Assembly: GCA_020027215.1 (NCBI GenBank)
Contig: JAHRAO010000017.1
Location: 1 to 41,178 of the forward strand
Direction of reading: 5' to 3'
DNA from: Gammaproteobacteria bacterium
Lineage (GTDB): Bacteria; Pseudomonadota; Gammaproteobacteria; JABABF01; JAHRAO01
Length of the DNA: 41,178 bases
Shown here: positions 1,114-13,812 of the stretch, piece after piece
Layout of the letters: each line of letters begins with the position of its first letter
How positions within the stretch are numbered: the stretch's first letter is position 1
Made by a program: the position numbers and the translations under genes
The notes under the pieces: generated by a model
Seen by the model: only the letters and a program-made list of their open reading frames with translations
The model's database searches: none
What the model was told of the DNA's origin: nothing

Positions 1114-4100
1114 GTGCCTAGTGAATACAGAGGGGAGTATTCAAAAAAAGGATGGAAAATACTTCTCTGTGTGCGTTTATTTGCCTACATTTTTTTTGCT
1201 ACACATCTTTTAGCGGCATGCGGGGGAGAAACGGGTGGCAATTTGCCGGGAAATAGTGCCGCTGGCGTACCGAGAATCACTTCTTTAACCATTGCCTCAA
1301 ATAATAGCGACAGAAGCATTGCCCATGTCGGCGATATGGTCTCCGTGCGTTTGACTACTAACGAGAGCATATTTGCTCCTGTCGTTATCATTGGAGGCTC
1401 TTTAGCGCATACCGTCAATGGAAGTGGTAGTATTTGGTTGGCAAGCCGTCCCGCTTTACTCAGCGATACTTCGGGCAATCTTGCCATTACAGTGCGCTAT
1501 AGTGATTTTCAAGCGAATATTAATGCGACATCCGCCACTACAGATGGCAGTGCTGTTCGCTATATTCCACCGAGGTGGGAAATGATCTGGGCGGAAGAAT
1601 TCAATGGCACGGCACTCAATATGGACAATTGGAATATTCAAGCGGGTGATGGTTGCCCGAACTTGTGCGGCTGGGGTAACAGAGAACAACAGTATTATTC
1701 TACTGATAATATTTCGGTAGCGAACGGCATGCTGACGATTACCGCTAGAGAAGAAAGCAAGGGAGGCAGATCATTCACTTCTGCGCGGATCAATACCAAG
1801 AATAAGTTTGATTTTACCTATGGTCGGGTAGAAGTGCGCGCCCAATTGCCGGCAGGATTAGGCACTTGGCCTGCGGCGTGGATGTTGCCGACTTCTAATA
1901 CTTATGGAATATGGCCTTTGTCGGGTGAAATAGATATAGTGGAGTCGACTAATTTGGGAGTCAATAATAAAAAAACGATTACGGGAACTTCCCACTATGG
2001 GATGTTGTCCCCACTCAATAGTTTCACATCCAATAATCATGAGCCATCAGCAAACCCCCAAGACGCTATGCATACCTACGCGATGGAATGGAGTCGTGAC
2101 CACATTCGCTACTTTTTTGATGATACGCACTATGCGACACAAACTTCGGCAAATTGGTATACCACCAGAGAAGACGGACGCGGCGGTTACGAGCAAGTGC
2201 CGGCAATGGGGGCTATGGTTTCACCGCCTTTTGACCAATCTTTTCACATATTGCTCAATTTAGCGGTTGGGGGCAATCTCACAGGCAACCCTGATGCGAA
2301 TGCACTCAGTGCCACTTTTGGTGGTAGCGGTCAAACTTATGATGTAGATTATGTGCGCGTTTTTCGTTGTGTGGATAATGACAGAATTGGACACGGAGTC
2401 GGTTGCCGCGCTAATGCCAGTTCTTCCGTGCGCGCAATTTCTTCAGCACATTCCCCGACTTTCAAACGCTTGGCTGTGTATCCTGCCAATGGCGGAGGCT
2501 TGCATCACCAAGAATTAGTGAGCGGTGCCATTGCCACCAATACTCTCCAAGTGGCGCGGTTTGCGAGTGGAACAGCAACCGTCAGCAATGATGTCCAAGC
2601 CACCGACAGCGGCGAAACGGTATGGAATGTGCAAATCAGCGGCAATGTGGGTAATGTCTCTCTGTTATCGGCCACCACCCCTTCGGCAGCATTAAGGCCC
2701 AATTTTGATCTATCAGGCACGCAGCATTTAGGGAACCTTGTTTTTAATATGAAAGTGAATGCCATTGGTGATAATACCACCTTGACGGTCAAGTTAGGCA
2801 ATGGTTTCCCTAACTCAGGGGAAAAGGATCTTGTTGTGGGTACAGTCGGGGAATGGACGACCTATACCATCAAAATAGCCGATCTGACACCTATTCCGGG
2901 CGGTACTTTAGATTTAACCAATGTGCGTGATTTATTTGTGATAGAAGCTACCGATACAGTAAATATGTCCAATACGCGCGCCGATGTCAATATTGATAAT
3001 ATTGTTTTGACCGCCGCATGTCGCAGCGCAGATTGCAGGCTTAACGCCATTCCCTTCTTTAACTTAGGTCCCGTTTTTGTGAATAGCACCATTGCGAATA
3101 CTTGGAGTGAAGGGTTCGCGGGTTTTGATGCCGCTAATAGCTTCACAACCGATTGTATTGACGATGGCGGTGCCGCTTGTCCGAGTCTGATGTGGCAGTT
3201 AGTGGATGATGCACAAAGACTGGGACGCAAAGTGATAGAAGTCACCCATCCCAATGCTTCAGCGACAATGTTTAGTGGCTTGACTATAGGACGCAACAGC
3301 CTTGGGGTGGATTTTACCGGCTTTGAAATGGGGCAGGTATTATTTGATCTGAAAGTCGTTGAAAATCCTATGAATGCGCAGTTTGTGATGAAAGTAGATT
3401 GTGTGGGATGCCCAACCACGGCTGCGGGTGAAAGGGAACAAAATTTAGGGATGATAGCGACTGGTGAATGGACTTCACAAAGTGTCAACATCTCCGCTTT
3501 GATTGCTGCTAATGGCGGTTCAACCGCCGGCGGGCTAAAAATTGATAAGGTCCTCAATGGGATGGTTATTTTTCCGGCGAGTGAAGGAAACAAATTTCGT
3601 GGGGTACGATATCGCGTTGATAATGTGCGCTGGGTGCGTACTGGCGGAACTACCACCGCACCGACCCCTACACCCGCCCGCCCGCTTGGACAAGCAGGTG
3701 TGTTTGCCGATGCCATTCATGCACAATGGAGCGATTCTAGCTTGACTGCTTGGGATGGGGCGATTAACAATATTTGCAGTAGTAGCGCTGCTTGCCCAAC
3801 TTTGGATTGGGAAATCACCACGGCAACTGCAGAAGCGACCACGCGCAATCAGGTGGTGAGAGTCGTACACAGTGCAGAAGCACCAACGGTTGCCGTTCTT
3901 ATTATGGGACAAAGAGGAAGCGGGCTTGATTTTACCGCTTTCTCTGCAGGCCAAATTAAGTTTGATGTCTATTACATTACTGCCAATGTGACCACCCAAG
4001 TTTTTGTCGTCAAAGCGGATTGTGCGGGGTGTTCATTTGACAATGCCCCACGTGAAATAGATTCAAATGTTGTGATGCCTTCTAATCATTGGCAAGAGAT

Positions 4101-4257
4101 TTCTATACAGGTACAAGATATCATTAACGCCAATGGCGGCCCAGATGAAGGACAAGGGTTAAAGATTGATCGCGTCACTACTGGTATGGTGATTAGAGTG
4201 AAAGATTCATCGGGAACTTTCACTTATGAACTGGATAATGTGCGGTGGGAACAATAA
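1114..4257 (+). CDS. GH16 laminarinase-type endo-beta-1,3-glucanase lipoprotein with C-terminal repeat modules
   Basis: Hydrolyses internal beta-1,3 (or mixed beta-1,3/1,4) glucan bonds, most likely in laminarin. The N-terminus is a lipoprotein signal with lipobox LAAC near residue 35, so the enzyme should be anchored in the outer membrane. A short Ig-like region follows. The GH16 domain spans about residues 155-420 and has the family motif GEIDIVES, with presumed nucleophile E272, D274 and acid/base E277, then TSHYG. The C-terminal half carries three related sandwich modules (about 455-635, 655-850, 870-1047). The last two share cysteine pairs and end in DNVRW, as in the preceding gene. The 1047 residues are far more than a bare GH16 enzyme needs. 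The start is a GTG with a poor ribosome site and is uncertain. The gene lies 52 bases before the TonB-dependent receptor, probably in one transcript. Confidence 0.9.
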   Translation: MPSEYRGEYSKKGWKILLCVRLFAYIFFATHLLAACGGETGGNLPGNSAAGVPRITSLTIASNNSDRSIAHVGDMVSVRLTTNESIFAPVVIIGGSLAHTVNGSGSIWLASRPALLSDTSGNLAITVRYSDFQANINATSATTDGSAVRYIPPRWEMIWAEEFNGTALNMDNWNIQAGDGCPNLCGWGNREQQYYSTDNISVANGMLTITAREESKGGRSFTSARINTKNKFDFTYGRVEVRAQLPAGLGTWPAAWMLPTSNTYGIWPLSGEIDIVESTNLGVNNKKTITGTSHYGMLSPLNSFTSNNHEPSANPQDAMHTYAMEWSRDHIRYFFDDTHYATQTSANWYTTREDGRGGYEQVPAMGAMVSPPFDQSFHILLNLAVGGNLTGNPDANALSATFGGSGQTYDVDYVRVFRCVDNDRIGHGVGCRANASSSVRAISSAHSPTFKRLAVYPANGGGLHHQELVSGAIATNTLQVARFASGTATVSNDVQATDSGETVWNVQISGNVGNVSLLSATTPSAALRPNFDLSGTQHLGNLVFNMKVNAIGDNTTLTVKLGNGFPNSGEKDLVVGTVGEWTTYTIKIADLTPIPGGTLDLTNVRDLFVIEATDTVNMSNTRADVNIDNIVLTAACRSADCRLNAIPFFNLGPVFVNSTIANTWSEGFAGFDAANSFTTDCIDDGGAACPSLMWQLVDDAQRLGRKVIEVTHPNASATMFSGLTIGRNSLGVDFTGFEMGQVLFDLKVVENPMNAQFVMKVDCVGCPTTAAGEREQNLGMIATGEWTSQSVNISALIAANGGSTAGGLKIDKVLNGMVIFPASEGNKFRGVRYRVDNVRWVRTGGTTTAPTPTPARPLGQAGVFADAIHAQWSDSSLTAWDGAINNICSSSAACPTLDWEITTATAEATTRNQVVRVVHSAEAPTVAVLIMGQRGSGLDFTAFSAGQIKFDVYYITANVTTQVFVVKADCAGCSFDNAPREIDSNVVMPSNHWQEISIQVQDIINANGGPDEGQGLKIDRVTTGMVIRVKDSSGTFTYELDNVRWEQ

Positions 4258-4309
4258 TCGCGTGAGTGCTTTTCCGTATGATACCACCGCCGCAAAAGGA
4301 GATAATCTA

Positions 4310-7141
4310 ATGCATCAATGGGGGAAAATAAGTATATTGGTGATGAGCTGTATTATTTACAGCACTGTGCAGGCACAACCCGATGGTGAAATAGATGCAA
4401 TAAATGAAGAACAAGTCGCCGCCGATGAAAGCGCAGTGGTGGTAGATAACGATGAGCAGGATGCGGTTGATGAAACGGCTTTAGAAGAAGTTGTTGTGAC
4501 GGCAACGAAGCGCGAGACATCTTTAATGGAAACCGCTTTGTCGGTGTCGGCATTTTCACAAGACAAATTGGATGAAACGGGCACGGCCAATGCCTTAGAT
4601 TTAGATGGGTTAGTGCCCAATTTGCAGGTAGGGTTTTCGCCCACCGATTCGGGAGTACAGGTGGCGATTCGCGGAATGACTTCCAATAATTTTACCGAAC
4701 TCGGTGATCCGACTGTGGCGTTTCATTTTGATGGTCTGTATTCGCCGCGCCCTCAAGGGGGATTGGCATTGATGCACGATGTGCAACGGGTGGAGATCAA
4801 TCGCGGACCGCAGGGTACCTTGTTTGGGCGCAATAGCACTGCCGGCAGTATTAATGTGATCAGTGCCCGCCCTGATTTTGATGGTTTTGGTGGCAATGTG
4901 GCAATTGATTATGGAAGCTTTAATCACCGTACCGTGAAAGGCTGGGCAAATATCCCAGTTACCGATTCTATTGGATTGCGCGTCTCACTATTTGTAGATC
5001 AAGGCGAGAGTTGGCTCAACCAAGTGCAGGATCGCTTTGATTTGCAGTGGGATACCAACCGTGATGGCGACTTTGGTGATCCATTTGATGTGCGCGCCGA
5101 TGGTATTCCCAATGTGGATCAACGGCGCAATCGTCCACTCGGTAAGGATGAATTTTATGGCGCTATCAATCGCTATGGCTTCCGTATCAGTAGTCGTTTC
5201 TTGTTAAGCGAAGCGGTGGAGTGGAATATTATTTACGACCACTTTCAAGATAACAGCCCCGGTGCAGTGCAAATAAAAGATTGCGAAAAAGCAAGGGGTA
5301 CTTTCTTTGCCTGTAGCGGATCGCAGTGGGATGAACCAGTGCCGGTCAATGTCCCCGGTGAATTGGATATGAGCATTGCTACGCTGCGCTCGGTGTTAGC
5401 ATGGGATATCACCGATTCTATGGTATTAGAGCACCGCATTGCTTTTGCGCAACAAAAAAGAAGCCAAATTAACGATAGTAATGTTTCGTATCCCGATCCG
5501 CGTCATCCGGCATATGGGTTGGGCGGCACGGGACCTAATGCACCGCTCACCAATCCAGATATTGTCACTTCATTAGGCTTTGCAGGCAATGTGGTGCCGA
5601 TTTTTACTGATACATCATTAATCACCAATCATTCCAACTATGATTCTTTAGTCACCGAACTACAATTGAAATCTACGTGGAACCGTCCTTTGCAATATAT
5701 AGTTGGCCTGACTTACTTAGAAGAAAATAACGACATCCGCTTTGATGTGGACTTCCCGTTTTGCTGTGGAGAAACTCCAAACGGCCCTCATCCGGGGGCA
5801 CAAACCTTTCTGCAGCCCGATCGTGGCGTGGAATCGGCGGCGATATTTGCGCAGATAGATTACGCTTTTAACGAGCGACTCAATATGACCTTGGGCTATC
5901 GTTTTACCACTGACCGCAAGTTTGATGTTGGGGGTAGAAATTTTGCGTGGACGGCACAGGGGGAATATTTTGCTCCAAGTAACGGGGGCAATTATAGTCC
6001 TTACTCGTCTATTGGCCGAGTATCATCCGCGACTTTTTATCAAGACGATGACTTGACTAACGACGATGGTCCTCGTGGCAGCAGTTGGCTCGGGCGTATC
6101 CGCACCCAAAGTGTCAATACATTTGAGCGTAGTTGGAATCAAGGAACATGGAAGGTGGGTATGGATTATGTCGTTACTTCCAACCTCTTTTTGTACGGGT
6201 ATGTTGCCACTGGCTTTAAATCAGGCGGATTTCAAGATAGGATCAATTTATGCACTGCAGACAATTGTAATGTGGAGATTTTCCCTACTTATGAACCAGA
6301 GCATGTCACTACGCTGGAAGTAGGGCTCAAAGCGAGCCCGCGCGATAACCTCAATATTATCGGTAATTTTTTTATTAATCAATTTGACGATATGCAGCAA
6401 ACGCTATTTGGCACTTTTGCCACGCCACCATTGGGTAATGAAGGTCCGCGTGTGGTGCCTCCCGATGCAATTGTATCGTCCGGCACGCAACTCATCCCCT
6501 GTTTAGACGGCACCATTAACTGCTTTACGGTGGAGCGCACTATTGGGAATTTGGTGACTAATAATGTTGCCGAAGCGCGCATAATGGGTATAGAGATTGA
6601 GATTGACTGGAAGCCTTACGCCAATGGACGGGTTACCGGTTGGGCGAGCTGGCTCAATGCCGAAATTACTTCTTTACCGAGTGCGGGTGATGGGGTATTT
6701 TGTTTTGAACGCGCCTATTTTGGTTTGCGCAACTGTCCTCCTGAAGACCCTGAGCGCGGTAATAACCGTTTATTTGAAGGTGGCGGCAATACCTTACCCT
6801 GGTCCCCTGAATGGTCATTTACAATTAGCTATGATCATAGCTGGTGGATGGCTGATTATCGTTTGAGCCCTTATGTATCAGTACATTGGCAAAGCGAAAT
6901 GTTTTTTACCAATGCTAATTTTGACCAAGACCCCTTCCACGACGGTCAAGAAGCCTATACGACCGCGGACATCGCACTACGCGTCATCAACGAAGCACAA
7001 GGATGGGGAGGCGAAGTATTCATTCGCAATGTGACCAATGAAGTGGTGCGTGAAAATTCAGCCCCGGGACCGGGATACATGCGCTCAACCTTTTATTCGC
7101 CGCGCACCTTTGGTCTCAAGTTTAACTATACTTTTGAGTAA
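4310..7141 (+). CDS. TonB-dependent outer-membrane receptor, probably for beta-glucan oligosaccharides
   Basis: A 943-residue outer-membrane transporter that would import ligands using TonB-ExbB-ExbD energy. I chose ATG 4310 because AAAGGAG sits 9 bases upstream and a clean signal peptide (cleaved near VQA/QPD) follows. After a short acidic linker comes the TonB box (EEVVVTATKR). The plug domain follows, with the typical segments LDGLVPNLQV, IRGM, RGPQGTLFGRNSTAG and GSINVIS. The beta-barrel runs to the last residues and ends in an aromatic-rich strand (FGLKFNYTF). The length is normal for this class. Its position directly behind a secreted laminarinase suggests that it takes up the released laminari-oligosaccharides. 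There is no SusD partner, as expected outside Bacteroidetes. Siderophore uptake is the alternative, but no siderophore genes are near. Confidence 0.92.
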   Translation: MHQWGKISILVMSCIIYSTVQAQPDGEIDAINEEQVAADESAVVVDNDEQDAVDETALEEVVVTATKRETSLMETALSVSAFSQDKLDETGTANALDLDGLVPNLQVGFSPTDSGVQVAIRGMTSNNFTELGDPTVAFHFDGLYSPRPQGGLALMHDVQRVEINRGPQGTLFGRNSTAGSINVISARPDFDGFGGNVAIDYGSFNHRTVKGWANIPVTDSIGLRVSLFVDQGESWLNQVQDRFDLQWDTNRDGDFGDPFDVRADGIPNVDQRRNRPLGKDEFYGAINRYGFRISSRFLLSEAVEWNIIYDHFQDNSPGAVQIKDCEKARGTFFACSGSQWDEPVPVNVPGELDMSIATLRSVLAWDITDSMVLEHRIAFAQQKRSQINDSNVSYPDPRHPAYGLGGTGPNAPLTNPDIVTSLGFAGNVVPIFTDTSLITNHSNYDSLVTELQLKSTWNRPLQYIVGLTYLEENNDIRFDVDFPFCCGETPNGPHPGAQTFLQPDRGVESAAIFAQIDYAFNERLNMTLGYRFTTDRKFDVGGRNFAWTAQGEYFAPSNGGNYSPYSSIGRVSSATFYQDDDLTNDDGPRGSSWLGRIRTQSVNTFERSWNQGTWKVGMDYVVTSNLFLYGYVATGFKSGGFQDRINLCTADNCNVEIFPTYEPEHVTTLEVGLKASPRDNLNIIGNFFINQFDDMQQTLFGTFATPPLGNEGPRVVPPDAIVSSGTQLIPCLDGTINCFTVERTIGNLVTNNVAEARIMGIEIEIDWKPYANGRVTGWASWLNAEITSLPSAGDGVFCFERAYFGLRNCPPEDPERGNNRLFEGGGNTLPWSPEWSFTISYDHSWWMADYRLSPYVSVHWQSEMFFTNANFDQDPFHDGQEAYTTADIALRVINEAQGWGGEVFIRNVTNEVVRENSAPGPGYMRSTFYSPRTFGLKFNYTFE

Positions 7142-10792: not shown

Positions 10793-11398
10793 ATGTGGCA
10801 GACCACAAATTACGACACAGTGATTAATCAATTAGGGGAAAAAGTGTTTGAGAAATTATTTGAAAGCCCTTATAAAGAGCGCATAATTAAGGTGTTGCCG
10901 ACTCTGTTTAATATGGTTGAATTGGAGAATCGGCGGGGAAAAAAACTTGGAATGGAAGTCGGCACGGCGCGGGAGCGGGTGCTTATTGCGCTACTTATGT
11001 ATGTTTATGGAAGCGATTTGGTTGAATTTCCCGAATCAACTGCCCCCGAATTAGATGTATGGGTCAACCATATTCCTCTATCAATAAAGACAAAAATGAA
11101 TAGTGTTTTTTCGGGGGTGAAACTTGCTTGGACGGTTGATTGGCACGCTGTGAATAAATTTCACAGCACCTATTCGCCACAAAGCGATATGCTTTTTGTT
11201 AGCATTAATTGGGGTACCGATAAGGGCGGTTTTTTTCTATTCCCGAAAAGCACACAACAACAGGTATTCAATGATTTAGGGCGTAGCAGTTATATAAAAT
11301 TACCGAAACGCGGCACGAATCCTCGCGGGGTAGAATTGTCCGCTGACGCTATGCGAGCATTACAGGCGCATAACGGCTACGCAACACTTACAAATTGA
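10793..11398 (+). CDS. Type II restriction endonuclease, probably ThaI-like, frameshifted near its 3' end
   Basis: The predicted DNA-cutting half of a restriction-modification pair (201 aa as it stands). A nuclease active site of the PD-(D/E)xK type is suggested by PELD (D88) and SIK (S97, K99) about ten residues later. The segments FSGVKLAWTVDW, INWGTDKGG and GTNPRGVELS remind me of ThaI-family (CGCG-cutting) enzymes; this is from memory and not checked. The frame stops at 11398. A different frame remains open from about 11331 to 11474 and encodes a protein-like tail (IDWRRDKSLL, then GRWIDLWNTL) whose stop overlaps the methylase ATG in an ATGA. An indel between about 11331 and 11390 has therefore probably removed the natural C-terminus. 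The DNA is visibly more AT-rich than the neighbouring housekeeping genes. Confidence 0.7.
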   Translation: MWQTTNYDTVINQLGEKVFEKLFESPYKERIIKVLPTLFNMVELENRRGKKLGMEVGTARERVLIALLMYVYGSDLVEFPESTAPELDVWVNHIPLSIKTKMNSVFSGVKLAWTVDWHAVNKFHSTYSPQSDMLFVSINWGTDKGGFFLFPKSTQQQVFNDLGRSSYIKLPKRGTNPRGVELSADAMRALQAHNGYATLTN

Positions 11399-11470
11399 TT
11401 GGCGTAGAGATAAGAGTTTGTTAGTTGAACGCACACTTTATGGCAGGTGGATTGACTTGTGGAATACGCT

Positions 11471-12346
11471 ATGAGTTTGAATAAAGGAAGCAAAACAAAA
11501 TCTTTCGGCACGCCAACAAGGCGGGGACACGACTCCTCATCTTTCTATAACCGCAAGATATATAAAGGGGAAGTAGCAAAGAATGGTGGCGATTATTCAC
11601 ACAAAACGCTAACAAAGCCAGATATAATTTATTGCCACGATAGCCGAAATATGAAGCATTTACCTGATAATTCTATTCATCTTATGATAACTTCACCTCC
11701 GTATAATGTCGGCAAAGATTATGATGATGATTTGACACTTGCGGAATATAAAGAGTTGTTAGAGAGCGTATTACAAGAAACATATAGGGTATTAGTAGAG
11801 GGCGGGCGCGCTTGTGTCAATATAGCGAATGTAGGGCGCAAACCGTATATCCCCTTACACGCTTATTTGATTGAAATAGCAGAAAATATCGGGTTTTTTA
11901 TGCGGGGCGAAATAATATGGGACAAGCAAACAACCGGCAATTCTTGTGCTTGGGGCAGCTTCCAATCAGCAAGCAATCCTGTTTTGCGCGATATGCACGA
12001 ATATATCCTTGTATTTTGTAAAGGCACTTTCGCAAGGCGACCAATAAAGCAAAATAGCATAGGGCGAGATGATTTTATTGAAAGCACAAAAAGTATATGG
12101 CGTATGGCACCATCGAGCGCAAAAAAAGTGGGGCATCCAGCTCCTTTTCCTATTGTATTACCAAAGCGCTTGATAAACCTTTATTCCTATGTTGGCGATA
12201 TTGTGTTAGACCCGTTTTTGGGTAGTGGCACGACAGCCCTCGCAGCGAAACAAACGGAGAGACATTATATAGGTTATGACATTAACAGGGATTATGTGAA
12301 AATGGCACGCGAAAACTTGAATGAGATAAAAATAAAGCAAGGGTGA
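11471..12346 (+). CDS. DNA methyltransferase of the restriction-modification pair (N4-cytosine or N6-adenine)
   Basis: Methylates the target of the adjacent nuclease to protect host DNA. It has the catalytic motif TSPPYN (residues 74-79) before the S-adenosylmethionine-binding motif DPFLGSGTT (247-255), so it is of the beta-type motif order. S/T-SPPY suits N4-cytosine enzymes, but N6-adenine cannot be excluded. The 291 residues appear intact. I chose ATG 11471 because it overlaps the stop of the alternative restriction-gene frame by ATGA; a GTG at 11459 is possible. AT-rich composition, and a transposase scrap on the far side of the nuclease gene, point to horizontal transfer. Confidence 0.85.
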   Translation: MSLNKGSKTKSFGTPTRRGHDSSSFYNRKIYKGEVAKNGGDYSHKTLTKPDIIYCHDSRNMKHLPDNSIHLMITSPPYNVGKDYDDDLTLAEYKELLESVLQETYRVLVEGGRACVNIANVGRKPYIPLHAYLIEIAENIGFFMRGEIIWDKQTTGNSCAWGSFQSASNPVLRDMHEYILVFCKGTFARRPIKQNSIGRDDFIESTKSIWRMAPSSAKKVGHPAPFPIVLPKRLINLYSYVGDIVLDPFLGSGTTALAAKQTERHYIGYDINRDYVKMARENLNEIKIKQG

Positions 12347-12507: not shown

Positions 12508-12537
12508 TTGACTAATATGATAATATTGTTATATAAT
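12508..12537 (+). promoter_or_regulatory. Sigma-70-like promoter before the barrel-SPOR gene
   Basis: TTGACT at 12508-12513 and a perfect TATAAT at 12532-12537 are separated by 18 bases in AT-rich DNA. The -10 box lies only 9 bases before the ATG at 12547, which would give a nearly leaderless transcript or imply a start slightly downstream. No Shine-Dalgarno sequence is visible. Confidence 0.5.
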
Positions 12538-12546
12538 TGATTTAGA

Positions 12547-13812
12547 ATGTTATCTCTCGCCAAAGCGTTTTTTTTATTGGGTTGTCGCCGTTATTTCACA
12601 CAACTTGTCGTTGTATTATCATTAGTGTGTCTCAGCGCATCTGTCGGCGCACAAAAGTTATATACGAGCGTTGTCGGTGGGGCGAGTGTTATTAACCCCA
12701 ATACCTCCCAATCAAGATTTTTTTCTATCTCCAACACACTTTCCTCGGGGGCAAAATTTAATCTGGGCTATCAAGCATTTAACCGTGTGGGGATGGAGTT
12801 GTTTTATACCAACTTAGGGGCAGTCACTGTTTCTCCCGATAACTCTCAATTTGCTGCAACCCAAGCGGGAGCCGCACTCACTTATATAATCCCGTTTAGC
12901 AATCGCTGGGATCTCACTATGCGCGGCGGCGCAGCGGCGATTGACATTGATTGGGTGCATACCGGAGAGTATGCCGAATACAATTTTATGGGTGGCATTG
13001 CACTGCGGCGACGTATGGGTAATTGGGTTATGGCTTTTGAAGCCGAGCAATACGGCACTAGTTTTACTTTTAGTGGCTTAAGTCTCACTAAGCATTGGGG
13101 CGGTGGGCGCAAAAGAGTTTTTATTGTGGATGAGTCGGAGATAGTGAACGGACACATACAAGTGGACCCTACCAGCACGCCGCTGAAAACTATTGCCATC
13201 GCTCAAACAGAGCAGGCGGAAGAGGCCATGCCCAGTCGTATTGTGGAAACATCAATATCCCCTGCGGTAAAAAGGCAAAAAAGTAGTCCTACCCTCACAT
13301 CTTCACCCATTGATTTTTCCGACATCAAAACCCAATACGATATCCAATGGGGGCCTTTTTACGACGAAAAAGCGGCTATTATTGCTCAACAGCGGATTAT
13401 TCGTTCTACCGGACGCACACCAGCTATTGTGAAGCAAGGCGGTTCTTTTGTAATTTCTTTGGTGGTTTATGATAAAACACAAGCACAGGTCATCCGCACT
13501 CGCGCGCGGCACAACTTAGCGCGTCGCACTTATGCGCTACATCATCGTTATAATCCACCGAACTGGCTGTCGTATAACCGTCAATGGCGGGTGCAATTAG
13601 GCGTGTTTGTTTCGCGCCAACGTGCCGATGCTTTGCGCAAAAAAACTCAAGAAGCGGGCTTTTCTAATGCGGTCGTCAATAAAATACGCCGCTCTGGCAA
13701 AGAAATGTATCCGGTGCAAGTGATCGCCTATTCCCCAGATGAGGCACAAAGAATGAAACATCGGGTGGATAGGCGTTTAAAATTGCAGAGCTTCGTTTTA
13801 TCGCCCCGATAA
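12547..13812 (+). CDS. Outer-membrane beta-barrel protein with two C-terminal SPOR domains
   Basis: 421 residues. The N-terminal signal peptide has a likely cut at VGA/QKL near residue 36. Residues about 37-185 alternate polar and hydrophobic residues in repeated short strands (FNLGYQAFNRVGMELFYT, AGAALTYIIPF, WDLTMRGGAAAI), as in eight-stranded OmpA-like barrels. A linker (about 190-255) leads to two SPOR-like repeats, at about 264-323 and 346-417 (the second begins WRVQLGVFVSRQRADAL). SPOR domains bind peptidoglycan stripped of stem peptides at division sites. I infer a barrel tethered to septal cell wall, with SPOR in the position that the OmpA C-terminal domain holds in OmpA. The gene is monocistronic, with its own promoter and terminator. 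The barrel part is inferred from pattern only; the SPOR part is firmer. Confidence 0.78.
   Translation: MLSLAKAFFLLGCRRYFTQLVVVLSLVCLSASVGAQKLYTSVVGGASVINPNTSQSRFFSISNTLSSGAKFNLGYQAFNRVGMELFYTNLGAVTVSPDNSQFAATQAGAALTYIIPFSNRWDLTMRGGAAAIDIDWVHTGEYAEYNFMGGIALRRRMGNWVMAFEAEQYGTSFTFSGLSLTKHWGGGRKRVFIVDESEIVNGHIQVDPTSTPLKTIAIAQTEQAEEAMPSRIVETSISPAVKRQKSSPTLTSSPIDFSDIKTQYDIQWGPFYDEKAAIIAQQRIIRSTGRTPAIVKQGGSFVISLVVYDKTQAQVIRTRARHNLARRTYALHHRYNPPNWLSYNRQWRVQLGVFVSRQRADALRKKTQEAGFSNAVVNKIRRSGKEMYPVQVIAYSPDEAQRMKHRVDRRLKLQSFVLSPR

Follow-up and report, generated by a model that had tools for sequence, protein, structure and literature searches.

A barrel-SPOR gene and its surroundings

The window, a 41,178-nucleotide stretch of a Gammaproteobacteria bacterium genome, carries on its forward strand an unbroken ORF (12547..13812; 421 aa) whose product joins a predicted OmpA-type barrel to SPOR domains and whose GC content (47%) is window-like. 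Ahead of it on the same strand lies a promoter-like site (12508..12537; TTGACT-18-TATAAT, 11 of 12 consensus positions), recognized by consensus match alone in a region whose total of such sites does not exceed that of shuffled sequence, and this site suggests that the gene has a transcript of its own. The start codon is uncertain: because the end of the -10 box lies so near the ATG (9 nt), the TTG at 12577 could be an alternative start with a shorter signal peptide, a choice that leaves the domains of the protein unaffected.

Directly upstream, at 10793-12346, a ThaI-like restriction endonuclease gene stands beside one for an N6/N4 DNA methylase; GC content there is 41.6% against 46% for the window, and the pair was probably acquired. 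Genes for sulfite reductase, DUF934 and RecN follow downstream. We considered the restriction-modification and sulfite-reductase neighbours as functional clues and judged them unrelated. Division genes linked to the barrel-SPOR gene were not found; the tol-pal cluster, which a sequence-only reading of this DNA had placed in the same window, is indeed there, about 19 kb away. At 1114-7141, a GH16 family protein (1047 aa) adjoins a TonB-dependent receptor, an arrangement like that of a polysaccharide-utilisation cluster.

An OmpA-type barrel behind a signal peptide

By inspection, residues 1-35 (12547..12651) form a signal peptide with probable cleavage between VGA and QK. Pfam profiles bracket the barrel that follows: OMP_b-brl matched with an E-value of 4.6e-5, under its family cut-off, and OmpA_membrane scored 21.6 bits, marginally over its cut-off of 21. 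Given an alignment of 29 related barrels as input, AlphaFold2 (AF2) built residues 37-184 (12655..13098) as eight long strands (pLDDT 89, pTM 0.81), and the top PDB fold match of this model was the transmembrane domain of E. coli OmpA (E 2.3e-8); OmpX, Ail and NspA ranked next. When AF2 folded the full-length protein from its sequence alone, it left the barrel region unmodelled (pLDDT about 22); we did not hold this failure against the barrel and let the alignment-based prediction decide. Residues 185-260 (13099..13326) form a periplasmic linker of about 75 aa to which AF2 assigned no confident structure. The protein thus matches OmpA-type proteins in having a signal peptide followed by a barrel of eight strands with the OmpA fold, and Pfam found no match to OmpA_C (PF00691) in the protein.

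These results bear out the signal peptide, the barrel of about 150 residues and the linker proposed from sequence alone. Structure prediction of the N-terminal part had been set beforehand as a test of that proposal, and it returned a closed eight-stranded barrel. The OMP_b-brl match that had been anticipated from HMM searching did appear, with a score short of its cut-off; OmpA_membrane passed its own.

One canonical and one probable degenerate SPOR fold

The C-terminal repeat, SPOR2 (residues 346-418; 13582..13800), is canonical. Pfam matched residues 346-417 at 39.6 bits against a cut-off of 21 (E 6.7e-10), hhalign aligned it with 28 SPOR domains at 96% probability, and AF2 agreed; its first strand carries VQLGVF, with Q350 and F354. 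SPOR1 (residues ~261-333; 13327..13545), with IQWGPF and the corresponding Q267 and F271, had no Pfam match. Several other measures favour the same fold for it. Single-sequence AF2 predicted a beta-alpha-beta-beta-alpha order at 262-331, with pLDDT mostly 70-90 as far as residue 310; hhalign gave a local profile match of 34 columns (P 1.9e-4); and its score on the SPOR profile was equalled by 4 of about 4,800 reported shuffles. Global alignment of the two repeats stood at z 5.8 over shuffles, 0.1% of which equalled it, and paired Q267/G269/F271 with Q350/G352/F354. From these alignments and models we conclude that the protein probably has two SPOR folds, of which the second is canonical and the first degenerate. 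The two SPOR-like repeats of the earlier reading therefore stand; its expectation that an HMM search would find SPOR twice was borne out for SPOR2 and failed for SPOR1, which Pfam missed.

A Foldseek search with the full low-confidence AF2 model gave weak matches only, SPOR domains from RlpA, DedD and FtsN included, and was not used by itself. We also tried and rejected an identity as FtsN: against the NCBIfam ftsN equivalog cut-off of 107.65 bits the protein reached 22 to 23.5, in its SPOR region only, and it does not combine an equivalog score with the inner-membrane helix by which FtsN is recognized.

SPOR in the place of OmpA_C

Relatives of the barrel were detected in 22 of 369 genomes of the class, the window's own included. 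Wherever a C-terminus was readable, reading of the sequences showed nearly all of them to be of OmpA_C type, and a family search (NCBIfam) confirmed OmpA_C in one homologue. The exceptions were partial loci, one barrel-only ORF that a stop codon interrupts, and two paralogues in the window's own genome, C37 (260 aa) and C28 (the end of a 2572-aa ORF), which have no wall-binding domain. On this comparison the barrel belongs to a Gammaproteobacterial family and SPOR sits where OmpA_C does elsewhere, since the homologues almost always continue into OmpA_C. This suggests that one wall-binding module can stand in for another in OmpA-type proteins.

The same architecture, sought in other genomes as the earlier reading had advised, was found once more. 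The order is represented in our set by two genomes of different families, and the second (G001; MAG JABABF010000106.1, 'Gammaproteobacteria bacterium isolate bin4o') encodes a 2043-aa ORF at whose C-terminal end a barrel from this family (scoring 40 bits on the barrel profile) is joined by a basic linker to a single SPOR domain (30.9 bits in Pfam; 30% identity to SPOR2 over 79 residues). With a profile of both proteins, barrel and SPOR occurred within one ORF in these two genomes only among loci from the 369 class genomes, and no further such ORF was among the loci retrieved from 399 genomes of the phylum; the profile reaches relatives of this barrel, SPOR domains on unrelated barrels lying outside its scope. 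A scan of a genome-contig database returned no relatives of the window protein, and with the G001 protein its sole match was that genome's own MAG. The sequence-only reading knew of no described barrel-SPOR protein, and we found none in the open-access literature, most subscription journals being outside that search.

The window protein is the single one of its form in its genome, and the lower-GC restriction-modification pair lies directly upstream, as might be expected if an assembly error or recent recombination had fused a barrel gene to a SPOR gene by chance, leaving no functional unit. We find this scarcely credible. The frame is unbroken, GC is even along the gene (barrel 48%, SPOR 47%), and the identical domain order in an independent MAG of another family makes an assembly accident unlikely and largely refutes such a fusion.

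The putative glycan-binding site

In the RlpA-SPOR complex, denuded glycan is touched by the side chains of Q270, R302, R309 and R311 and by the ring of F274, the remaining contacts being mostly main-chain; basic-patch residues vary among SPOR domains, and the RlpA domain binds stripped glycan only, stem peptides abolishing binding (PMC6895207). By alignment, both repeats of the window protein keep the beta1 Gln and Phe that match Q270 and F274. The beta3 arginines R309 and R311 align with P389 and Q391 in SPOR2 and with V301 and S303 in SPOR1, and the equivalent of S254 (FtsN numbering) is V353 in SPOR2 and P270 in SPOR1. Loss of the arginines may mean a weak or altered affinity; it is not decisive, because basic residues (R381, R382 and K385) lie near the beta3 site of SPOR2 and other SPOR domains use different patch residues. 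DedD, the genome's other SPOR protein (folC-dedD-cvpA-purF), likewise seems to be without these arginines, a sign that the lineage has diverged rather than that the barrel-SPOR protein alone has decayed.

The SPOR pair might instead have lost glycan binding and mediate protein-protein docking, or act as a spacer, below the barrel. Such a role would accord with the absence of the beta3 arginines from both repeats, the changes at the S254 position and the high divergence of SPOR1, and we hold it improbable: both repeats have the beta1 Gln and Phe, glycan contacts in RlpA-SPOR are largely made by the main chain, and the SPOR of the G001 homologue retains the Gln and one arginine. As judged from these residues, glycan binding by the pair is plausible, not assured.

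A proposed tether with a preference for denuded glycan

OmpA has its barrel in the membrane and its C-terminal domain on peptidoglycan, and ordinary OmpA binds the stem-peptide-bearing wall around the whole cell. SPOR domains bind denuded glycan, which is enriched at septa and is made by amidases while the septum splits. Because SPOR replaces OmpA_C in the window protein, a tether from outer membrane to wall is the natural reading, and established knowledge of OmpA and SPOR makes a tether that prefers septum or poles the simplest account. We thus consider it somewhat probable that the protein is an OmpA-like outer-membrane-to-wall tether with tandem SPOR instead of OmpA_C, preferring denuded glycan at the septum and young poles. 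BAM would insert the barrel into the outer membrane in the normal way, the C-terminal linker would extend into the periplasm, and the SPOR pair, chiefly SPOR2, would hold glycan strands that lack stem peptides. Since the pair would grip denuded glycan made by amidases, the tether would gather, unlike ordinary OmpA, at division sites and young poles. An Amidase_3 enzyme encoded in the genome is a possible source of such glycan. We infer glycan binding, septal enrichment and a putative role in constriction; the reading has its limits in the lost beta3 arginines, the sub-Pfam SPOR1, the lack of linkage to division genes and an architecture seen in two genomes.

The protein resembles E. coli OmpA and other OMP_b-brl plus OmpA_C proteins in its overall plan: the signal peptide is followed by eight strands in the same barrel fold, a linker and a C-terminal peptidoglycan-binding module. 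It differs in having tandem SPOR for OmpA_C, with denuded glycan as the expected ligand where OmpA takes diaminopimelate stem peptides. Like RlpA, it places SPOR in the periplasm under an outer-membrane anchor and has the glycan-site Gln and Phe of beta1, whereas RlpA is held by a lipid and is a lytic transglycosylase containing a DPBB domain and one SPOR, and here there are a barrel, two SPORs and no enzyme domain. FtsN, DamX and DedD also end a long periplasmic linker in SPOR, but theirs starts from a single inner-membrane helix instead of an outer-membrane barrel, and the gene for DedD is separate in this genome. Pal, too, links outer membrane and wall, and Tol-Pal genes share the window; yet Pal is an OmpA_C lipoprotein placed by TolA and TolB, its domains are unrelated, and no operon is shared.

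Both genomes of the order encode exactly one OmpA_C domain, that of Pal in the tol-pal cluster, which leaves each without a barrel tether of OmpA_C type; the number is 2 to 18 in most other families of the class and one or none in several others, mostly with small genomes. A replacement for OmpA would therefore be useful, and the SPOR module could act as a general tether, binding the wall loosely or at sparse denuded sites on the side wall, in place of OmpA cell-wide and with no septal role. Loss of the glycan-site arginines would fit such loose binding. We nevertheless regard it as unlikely, as the conserved Gln and Phe are retained and the RlpA SPOR takes stripped glycan only, with binding abolished by stem peptides (PMC6895207).

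Returning to the tether with a preference for denuded glycan, a narrower version would make it a septum-specific anchor. The outer membrane's following of the constricting wall is usually credited to Tol-Pal and OmpA_C-type tethers. In an order without OmpA_C-type barrel tethers, the protein might tie the outer membrane to denuded septal wall and aid constriction partly independently of Tol-Pal, a possibility that we hold only tentatively. Anchoring of the outer membrane to septal wall by a barrel, in parallel with Tol-Pal, was the central proposal of the earlier reading. The barrel-SPOR architecture is supported and recurs in a second family, and the exchange of OmpA_C for SPOR favours a tether; septal targeting and action alongside Tol-Pal are possibilities only, given the lost beta3 arginines (a patch that other SPOR domains build differently), the degenerate SPOR1 and the absence of division-gene linkage. 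If true, a SPOR-bearing barrel would link the outer membrane directly to the wall under splitting, and barrel-SPOR proteins would be a natural way to ask whether a tether's place of action depends on its type of peptidoglycan-binding domain.

Other SPOR and barrel genes in the two genomes

The window's own assembly has two SPOR genes against four in G001, of which one is FtsN-like. The family model found no FtsN in the window's genome (a 97%-complete assembly), its sole match being the SPOR region of the barrel-SPOR protein, far under the cut-off. A 354-aa lipoprotein-like ORF of G001 (L077:1399-2460, minus strand; 733-1794 of the reverse complement) includes a stretch similar to a secretin/TonB short domain, then SPOR, a further uncommon pairing for SPOR in this genome.

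Giant surface-like proteins with a GlyGly-CTERM-like tail precede OmpA-type barrels at C28, C37 and G001 L078:1673-7801; no sorting-signal model scored above its cut-off here. The two parts are fused in C28 (L111, ORF from 869 on the plus strand, 2572 aa) and in G001 (2043 aa), and are two adjoining ORFs in C37 (L110, minus strand). Because a second signal-peptide-like segment separates tail and barrel, the giant protein-barrel product may be made as a polyprotein and then cleaved into two parts.
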